A DNA stretch of 26,728 nt, from the NCBI GenBank assembly GCA_001929475.1, contig LXFE01000369.1, forward strand, positions 1-26,728, given 5' to 3'. The notes beneath the pieces were generated by a model. The model saw only the letters and a program-made list of their open reading frames with translations. It searched no databases and was not told where the DNA came from. Shown in pieces: positions 19,613-22,058 of this stretch (position 1 is its first letter; every line of letters starts with the position of its first letter). Made by a program: the position numbers and the translations under genes. Source of the DNA: Neolecta irregularis DAH-3. Taxonomy: Eukaryota; Ascomycota; Neolectomycetes; Neolectales; Neolectaceae.

Positions 19613-22058
19613 TTAAAAATTCTCTTTTCCTTGAGGGATCAGCCTTGCCTGGCTAGGGGAACAAACGGTAAAAGAAAGAGGTACCACCATTTCTAGGTTG
19701 GCTCCATGCGTTTGCCATCCCATGCAAAGTACTGCCGAGATCTCTAGGACCACAATAGAATACCCCAACATCCTAAAACTCAGTTTTGGCTCTCCAAAGG
19801 GATGAACAGTCGCAGGATTAAGGGTACAAATCGACCTGAATATTCTAATCTGGTTATTGTGGATAAATGACAAGCTTCAACCTGTCCCAGTCTGGCCTGC
19901 CATAATTTGTGGGCGATTTGAGCCCTGTAATAGGATCCCGCTCGGTTTCAGCATCGTTGAGCATGATGTTTGTGGCATCATCAGGCCTTACCGTCGTTGT
20001 AAAGTACTATTCCTCAATGAGAGATGAAACCGGGTGTTGTACAGTGTGAATCTCAATCAGATGTGAGATATCTGTATTGTAAATAATGCCACTCCCCACG
20101 CAATTGAACATACCTTGAGTTTCGATTGCCATAAGCAAAGATCTAAACCATTCAAATGACTCAAAATCCCGGCAAATCCACTGGAGGATGAGCCCATTGA
20201 AACTTTTCAACGGACATACGAAGAAGTAGACTTTGGAAAGCCTCACTTTGCGATATTTTGTTGCGTTATTGATACGATACGTAATCAAATTAGAATTTCC
20301 AAGCACAAAGGTACTTATCAGATACTCTTCAAGATACTGGCGAAAGGGGTTCTATTTTCACGTGAGCCTCGTAATTTTGAGTTGAGGGACGCCTGACACC
20401 CCAATGCCTGCTCCTACCAGTAACGCCACTTCATATTTGAAGACATCTTCAGAAGATGATCTAGAAATTAGGTCAGAGAATGCGAACTTGTATACCCAAA
20501 GGGCCCATCTATCATAATTCGAGGGAGGACACGCTGAAAAGCCGAACCCAAGTCTTTCTCATCGTTATCGATTCCGACGACCAGTGACTTGTGCCTGTCC
20601 TTGACATCTATCCTGTCAAAATCACAACCGATTTTTCGTGCAAGAGCATTTGTGAAGTCGCCTTGTATTAGTCTTTTGCATAGTCTTGATCGAATACCAA
20701 TGCATCGGACATGAATAGATATATACCCTTCATCGGATGCGGAAGTCAGTGTGAAAGGATGGTACTGCCAAAGAGAAATTTCAGGACAACAAAGGAATAC
20801 GTATTGTCCAGCCTTTGGCGAGCAGTTTTCTTTTCGAATCTGTATCTCGCAAACATTGCTGGGATGTTGAATCACTTTGCTGCAAACTGAGCGTTTGCAT
20901 CAGGTGCGTTCATACCTGATATACGTTCTGTGACTGCCCCGTATTTCTCGGTAAAGCCGTTCTCCGATATACATAAATCCTCCCACAAGCCAGTATTTCC
21001 AAAAGGCACCAGTACCTGCACAAAATGGGGGTCTAGAAGGTTTTAACATACAAAAAGCTTCGTTAGTTTAAATTTCCAAGAGAAGACATACTTCCGTGGA
21101 GAGACCACCCAAAGAAGAACACAAAGAACAGATGGTGTGTATACCAAAATCGTTCATAGTTTGCTGCTTTGGGCTTCTTCATTGCGGTGAATACCATTGC
21201 ATTCAAAGCGATTAGCATAACATATCCCGTTACACCGGGTCCTGTTGCAAAGTTTGCAAGAAAACTACATGTTGGAGTTTGTAATGGAGATGTGTATTAC
21301 AAGCCCTTCACTCCGAGATTGTGTGCAGCAGAAAGACGGGCCAGATTATTCCAATGGCCTATAATTGAGATTTTCAAGTATTACAAATGGTCGTACAAAC
21401 AGTATGTAGCCACGAGAAGAAGTAAATAGACCAACCGATAAATGTATGGAACTGTATATTTTTGTCGAAAGGAATTATTCCCTAGAGATCAGCAACGACT
21501 TTACCCACACACCTTGCATTGAGCGGTGTTTGTCGTAGAGTCGACATGAAATTCCGACAAATGGCTAAATCTGTCAGACCCGACGTTCACCAGCATAATT
21601 TACGCAAGAGAATGAAAGCAAGATCTACATGCAAAACCATTGCAGATGAACGAGCGATGGGGAATGTCTCGCCATACATCTTCATGGACTGCTTGTAGCT
21701 ATCCTAAAAGTAAAAAGCTTATATTGTGCCCATCTTACTTTCAAGCGATATCGAAGATATCCCAATGTAAAGACCAAAACATGAAGGACAACCAAAAGCC
21801 CTACGAATCTTTTGTCAGTCTGTTTCTGATATCAACCAAGTATACATTTTGAAGGAGCCTTCCGAATCAGTAGGGATCTTGAAGCTTGAATAAACCTTCA
21901 TTGACCATCCATCTATAAATTTTCTGTCTGAGCGTCATTTCTGGTACATGTTGTTCATGGCCAGGTGCTTGCATGGTAGTATGAAGCAGCGTATTTCGCA
22001 AAGACCCAGTGGATAATTCGGAACCCATTTTTTGACTGCCAAAATAAGGGGAAAACAT
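19613..22058 (-). CDS. NADPH oxidase (fungal Nox, NoxC-like)
   Basis: Membrane flavocytochrome that passes electrons from NADPH through FAD and two hemes to oxygen, making superoxide. Exons (minus): 22058-21896, 21800-21739, 21703-21604, 21564-21518, 21481-21397, 21358-21301, 21264-21092, 21057-20916, 20879-20698, 20661-20496, 20460-20398, 20351-20319, 20280-20220, 20180-20114, 20071-20043, 20006-19882, 19844-19808, 19772-19667 and 19629-19613; about 571 residues, normal length. Heme ligands are spaced as in the family: H136/H150 and H215/H228. FAD motif HPFTLTSA is at about 317-324; NADPH motifs are DGPFG (389-393), [13 protein letters not shown] and WICRDFESFEWF; the C-terminus ends RKENF. 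Block RQTPLNGIIPFDKNIQFH points to the NoxC type, but no EF-hand is seen. Intron 20281-20318 is AT-AC and 21482-21517 is GC-AG. The N-terminal joins are uncertain: one 95-bp intron (21801-21895) or two (21859-21905, 21801-21845). Confidence 0.9.
20281..20318 (-). other. AT-AC intron in the NADPH oxidase gene
   Basis: A 38-bp intron beginning ATAAGTACC and ending TTTGATTAC, with a CTAAT branch motif. The upstream exon runs AAG AGT ATC TG, then would read TGA TAA if not spliced there. Exact removal gives [20 protein letters not shown], matching the invariant Nox segment. The 5' motif ATAAGT resembles U2-type rather than the U12-type ATATCC. Confidence 0.8.
21482..21517 (-). other. GC-AG intron in the NADPH oxidase gene
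   Basis: 36-bp intron AAT|GCAAGG...GCTGATCTCTAG|GGA. It joins RQTPLN directly to GIIPFDKNIQFH, the usual family sequence. The only in-frame GT choice is a 27-bp intron that leaves two extra residues. Confidence 0.65.

Follow-up and report, generated by a model that had tools for sequence, protein, structure and literature searches.

Introns with AT-AC termini have been described in several lineages, in some cases as substrates of the major spliceosome. For example, splicing of the vertebrate sodium-channel SCN4A intron 21 needs the major spliceosome (PMC2831892), and in Caenorhabditis elegans 59 AT-AC introns were found automatically, of which at least 42 were suspected by the authors to be real (PMC3033335). 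For yeast, AT-AC is reported to come second only to GT-AG in efficiency as a pair of intron ends, and no standard yeast intron is normally AT-AC (PMC6726248). In other fungi, AT-AC introns are listed for Fusarium graminearum (PMC3577648), account for 0.03% in SnowyOwl gene models (PMC4084796) and for 0.09 to 5.19% of junctions in human fungal pathogens (PMC6176087), and are included in a survey covering 130 fungi (PMC7072748). No convincing minor introns are reported in Ascomycota and Basidiomycota, and the minor introns of Blastocystis, of which 77% are AT-AC, have a median length of 39 bp (PMC10639083). Neolecta belongs to the Taphrinomycotina within the Ascomycota. In the open-access literature, no report of an AT-AC intron was found for Neolecta or for any nox gene; the word "intron" is absent from the available main text of PMC5309816, and "AT-AC" from the available text of PMC8476143. 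Here we describe, in Neolecta irregularis, 38 bases of a noxB-type gene that, judging from conservation and intron signals, are very probably a U2-type (major) spliceosomal intron with AT-AC ends.

Results

The window, i.e. the whole stretch of DNA that was analysed (26,728 nucleotides), contains an NADPH oxidase (Nox) gene with introns of more than one end class.

19613 to 22058, minus strand: NoxB-type NADPH oxidase gene, 578 aa; homology-guided model with 20 exons and 19 introns, resting on one open frame on joining, Pfam domains and homologues
21482 to 21517, minus strand: GC-AG intron of the Nox gene, 36 nt; removal gives TPLNGIIPFDKN

Exon borders were set by hand from the reading frame, splice signals and resemblance to Nox proteins. 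The 19 introns of the resulting model are 34 to 46 nt long and comprise 17 GT-AG introns, the GC-AG intron and one AT-AC intron. The model protein scores above the Pfam cut-offs for Ferric_reduct, FAD_binding_8 and NAD_binding_6, which together span its full length. A homologue search with its translation returned 3,067 matches, of which the best 120 were used; setting aside P0001 and P0003, two proteins considered below, the remaining 118 of these are 57 to 64% identical to the model over 91 to 100% of the query. The subtype is presumably NoxB, a name suggested in part by matches entitled "NADPH oxidase B" and "isoform 2". On these sequence features, the gene looks like a working gene. Its structure includes a 13-nt exon (21858 to 21846, minus strand) between two 37-nt introns. 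Three introns (20697 to 20662, 20219 to 20181 and 20113 to 20072, minus strand) have lengths that are multiples of three and contain no stop in frame; a check based on stops would therefore not notice their retention. A second Nox gene (locus L034 on contig C68) is 39 to 48% identical in three pieces; its TPWASILRNI segment is uninterrupted, with no intron at the equivalent position.

The AT-AC intron lies in the part of the gene that encodes the TPFASILK motif, and its surroundings were resolved as follows.

20352 to 20397, minus strand: GT-AG intron of 46 nt with donor GTCAGG, lying upstream; fixes the reading frame of the exon with TPFASILK and is the one chosen when left free
20319 to 20351, minus strand: exon upstream of the AT-AC intron, 33 nt; encodes 10 residues including TPFASILK, and the TG of a Trp codon
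20281 to 20318, minus strand: AT-AC intron, 38 nt, phase 2; top-scoring among 492,637 arrangements against a homologue profile
20313 to 20318, minus strand: 5' splice site ATAAGT; CTG/ATAAGTA against CAG/GTAAGTA matches at 8 of 10 positions, with mismatches at -2 and +1
20289 to 20293, minus strand: likely branch site CTAAT, with the branch A at 20290, 9 bases before the intron end
20281 to 20282, minus strand: 3' splice site AC in the context GATTAC, from profile scoring and intron comparison
20220 to 20280, minus strand: exon downstream of the AT-AC intron; the G of the Trp codon, then 20 residues

The intron starts ATAAGTACC and ends TTTGATTAC, and is flanked by CTG and GTATCG; because the flanking bases differ, the junction cannot slide. 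The first-pass annotation of this DNA had placed an AT-AC intron at these bases inside a conserved Nox motif and held that its exact removal restores ILKSIWYR, both of which the sequence bears out: excision joins TG/G TAT CGT, read as W Y R. It had also held that read-through meets TGA TAA at once. This is so when the frame of the preceding exon is kept; another frame, however, is open throughout and is the one used by the deposited protein P0003.

A profile built from 119 homologues (the best 120 of 3,067, minus P0003) served to score the excision without presupposing any splice signals. Keeping the upstream intron constant gave 6,673 sequences to compare (6,672 excisions of 15 to 110 nt and the unexcised one), of which 1,206 lacked a stop. 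Exactly 20318 to 20281 ranked first at 145.5 bits, and the next, at 140.0 bits, were shifted copies of the same excision in which the Trp is lost. When the upstream intron could vary as well (116 GT/GC-AG choices or its absence, combined with any second excision, giving 492,637 arrangements of which 122,858 were open), only the pair 20397 to 20352 and 20318 to 20281 reached 145.5 bits. When arrangements were restricted to none, one or two GT/GC-AG introns (2,068 tried, 667 open), the best reached 112.1 bits, 33 bits below the model with the AT-AC excision. The segment concerned is close to invariant: TPFASILK is kept in 119 of the best 120 of 3,067 homologues, and the W and Y that follow it in 119 of 119. 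The best match, P0001 (JGI source), is 86% identical and carries the conserved TPFASILK..WY; it has 555 aa on a contig of 1,785 nt, which is transcript-like because that length has no space for such introns. From this we infer that the contig is a transcript of a relative, which shows the protein motif and is silent on whether the relative has an AT-AC intron.

The sole exception to TPFASILK among these 120 homologues is P0003, "Cytochrome b-245 heavy chain, partial [Neolecta irregularis DAH-3]", the deposited model of the same Nox gene. Its upstream intron runs from 20399 to 20352, with the donor two bases earlier than in our model, so that the AT-AC intron is translated in another frame and gives GAGIGNPFRQYLEEYLISTFVLGNSNLITYRINN; removing 20399 to 20352 from the genomic sequence reproduces this reading. 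Against NAD_binding_6, the whole Nox model scores 106.3 bits, P0001 112.9 bits and P0003 45.6 bits, P0003 differing elsewhere too. It is partial, keeps the 42-nt intron at 20113 to 20072, lacks the stretch after KAGQY and differs in the region of the C terminus. Judged by conservation, the deposited Nox protein has an incorrect NADPH-binding domain, probably a consequence of annotation that disallowed AT-AC ends.

The signals of the intron were compared with those of 410 GT introns predicted by a gene finder that recovers 10 of the 19 Nox introns exactly. The length of 38 nt equals the median of this set (55.1st percentile), as does the distance of 9 from the branch A to the intron end (51.5th percentile). 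The branch score, from a hand-set branch matrix, falls at the 91.5th percentile, the donor context without +1 and +2 at the 79.5th and the acceptor context at the 53.2nd. The donor matches the U1 complement CAGGTAAGTA at 8 of 10 positions, a match equalled or exceeded by 6 of the 410 predicted introns. U12-type introns are marked by the donor consensus ATATCCTT and the branch consensus TCCTTAAC. At positions +4 to +8 of the former the AT-AC intron matches 0 of 5, and against RTATCCTT its donor matches 3 of 8, all inside ATA, so that its donor is not of the U12 type. The best match to the U12 branch consensus is 4 of 8, and the intron likewise lacks a U12-type branch site; a match of at least 4 of 8 also occurs in 318 of the 323 predicted GT introns of 34 to 42 nt. 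What the intron does show is the combination expected of a U2-type AT-AC intron, namely AT and AC ends, a U1-like donor with G at +5, and a branch site and branch distance typical of the species. The ATATCC core and CCTTAAC of the U12 consensus are also given in the available text of PMC3033335. The earlier description of the 5' end as U2-like rather than U12-like is thus upheld by the two donor comparisons, whereas its ranking of the intron among the smallest expected for AT-AC introns is not supported by the median of the 410 predicted introns and by the similar size of Blastocystis minor introns.

Genes for spliceosomal RNAs were sought with covariance models in 8.96 Mb on 363 contigs, approximately 62% of the published assembly, which is reported at 14.5 Mb and 199-fold coverage (PMC5309816). 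Within these 8.96 Mb, a U2 gene was found at 132.8 bits and a U4 gene at 90.3 bits; a candidate U1 gene, which is full length and begins TCACTTACCTGG, scored 43.7 bits, below the Rfam cut-off of 69.5. None of U11, U12, U4atac and U6atac was found in the 8.96 Mb, nor was there a match to the PDCD7 protein family, both searches being run without a positive control. Unlike U1, U2 and U4, U6 was also missed by the same method in the same 8.96 Mb. Fungal U6 genes can contain introns, and the U6 gene of N. irregularis may be interrupted by one or may lie in the remaining portion of the assembly. The genome search for minor-spliceosome RNAs proposed in the first-pass annotation returned 0 of 4 in these 8.96 Mb, with the reservation that U6 escaped it too. 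Because of the missing positive control and the coverage of about 62%, the absence of minor-spliceosome RNAs and PDCD7 is, taken alone, a weak argument against the U12 route.

A survey for further non-canonical introns used the gene finder trained on 230,872 bases, made up of the window, 20 further stretches and the loci L029 and L034; the sample was non-random, 19 of the 20 stretches having been picked for containing ATAAGTACC. On the Nox gene, the finder made four wrong calls beside its ten exact introns. With an AT-AC class at a penalty of -4.5, it placed five AT-AC introns, inside the range of one to six placed for other classes, and in rank by score gain AT-AC came 54th of 254 end classes over 230 kb, which shows no excess. 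The Nox AT-AC intron itself was not selected by the finder with this class, even at a milder penalty. In a local scan of 148 ATAAGT sites (covering 29 of 62 AGATAAGTA places), the Nox intron ranked 42nd of 91 candidates. As the finder misses the Nox intron and the scan ranks it 42nd of 91, the survey has no power on the frequency of AT-AC introns. Two high-ranking candidates of the scan, L028 (first) and L013 (fifth), looked like ordinary reading frames on inspection by eye. The best single non-canonical intron over the 254 end classes and 230 kb was of another kind, an apparent GT-AT intron of 38 nt in the kinesin gene adjoining the Nox gene (18431 to 18394, minus strand), with a GTATGA start, a CTGAC branch site and an AT end. 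Its excision restores TYVEIYNEQLRDLL, and both displayed alignments (of 157 matches) run ungapped across the junction in TYVE/IYNEQLRDLL. The AT end is one substitution from TAG and may be a sequencing error or a variant.

Discussion

The conserved motif, the profile scores and the intron signals together point to the standard splicing machinery as what most likely removes the AT-AC Nox intron. That the intron is spliced in the cell, that it follows the U2 pathway and that its first and last bases make contact are points we infer from established splicing biology. Recognition of the strong ATAAGT donor would fall to U1 and then U6; in CTG/ATAAGTA this donor carries a single mismatch to the GTAAGT core, at +1, and outside the core another at -2. 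The CTAAT branch site would base-pair with U2, and in the second step the intron's first A and last C would stand in for the two Gs that normally make contact. The argument from paired changes of the first and last bases, already made in the first-pass annotation, is consistent with the yeast results in the available text of PMC6726248.

Other explanations have to be set against a U2-type AT-AC intron. Splicing might be canonical throughout: the upstream intron would begin at 20399, or at some other GT, and end at an AG, and the 38 bases would be coding in another frame. This is the reading of P0003, and a gene finder lacking an AT-AC class also reads through 20318 to 20281; it nevertheless destroys a motif whose single exception among the best 120 homologues is P0003 itself, its best arrangement scores 112.1 against 145.5 bits, and the frame of the TPFASILK exon encodes its 10 conserved residues exactly, which makes this reading very unlikely. 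An ordinary GT-AG intron altered by a private mutation, or by an error of sequencing or assembly, has a similarly slim chance: the apparent GT-AT intron of the adjoining kinesin gene, one substitution from GT-AG, suggests that this contig may contain errors or variants, but such an origin of the Nox intron would require two independent changes, one at each end, that happen to form a pair expected to splice, in an assembly reported at 199-fold coverage (PMC5309816).

Removal of the intron by the minor spliceosome is harder still to believe. The AT-AC ends would suit a U12-type intron, and the negative searches for the U12 family had no positive control and shared their method with the search that missed U6. 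Against this, positions +4 to +8 match the U12 donor at none of five bases, the 4 of 8 agreement with the U12 branch site is what nearly all predicted introns of similar length offer, U11, U12, U4atac and U6atac were not found in 8.96 Mb in which U1, U2 and U4 were, and Ascomycota are described as lacking convincing minor introns (PMC10639083). No more credible is the idea that the gene is decaying and the segment an insertion that broke its frame; read-through in the frame of the exon does yield stops, yet the remaining frame of 578 aa is open over 20 exons and conserved, and the donor, branch site and length of the 38-nt segment are typical of introns in this genome. As to the origin of the U2-type AT-AC intron, it is conceivable, if improbable, that it descends from an ancient nox-family intron of the U12-type AT-AC kind, whose donor became U2-type before U11 and U12 were lost; its AT-AC ends would then have been trapped, leaving a minor-spliceosome relic in Dikarya. 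The same route from a U12 to a U2 donor has been proposed for the sodium-channel introns (PMC2831892).

The Nox intron offers a clean AT-AC case within a coding motif that is invariant, in a phylum of fungi without convincing minor introns. It could therefore serve to ask to what extent, in an intron this tiny, the major spliceosome accepts first and last bases that have changed as a pair. The practical cost of such introns to annotation is also apparent, in the form of a wrong deposited protein.

Among described systems, the intron resembles the vertebrate sodium-channel U2-type (type II) AT-AC introns, e.g. SCN4A intron 21, in its AT-AC ends and G at +5 (PMC2831892); those introns, however, occur in animals with a minor spliceosome, whereas that of Neolecta is 38 nt long, belongs to an ascomycete and is predicted from sequence. 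AT-AC introns also occur in C. elegans, a species apparently without U11, U12 and U4atac (PMC3033335); in about 62% of the Neolecta assembly the search for these RNAs gave no match, as it did for U6. C. elegans is an animal with many such introns, supported by alignments that the authors inspected, whereas the Neolecta case is a single intron deduced from protein conservation. A parallel within the phylum is Saccharomyces cerevisiae, an ascomycete without a minor spliceosome, in which AT-AC is used by the SUT635 protointron and as an alternative in RPL30 (PMC6726248). Unlike those yeast junctions, the Neolecta intron interrupts a conserved coding motif, and its removal is required for the normal protein. 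It also differs from the AT-AC reports in other fungi, all of which are mass counts, in being an individual intron. U2-type AT-AC introns are thus already known but rare, and the Nox intron of Neolecta is a new example.
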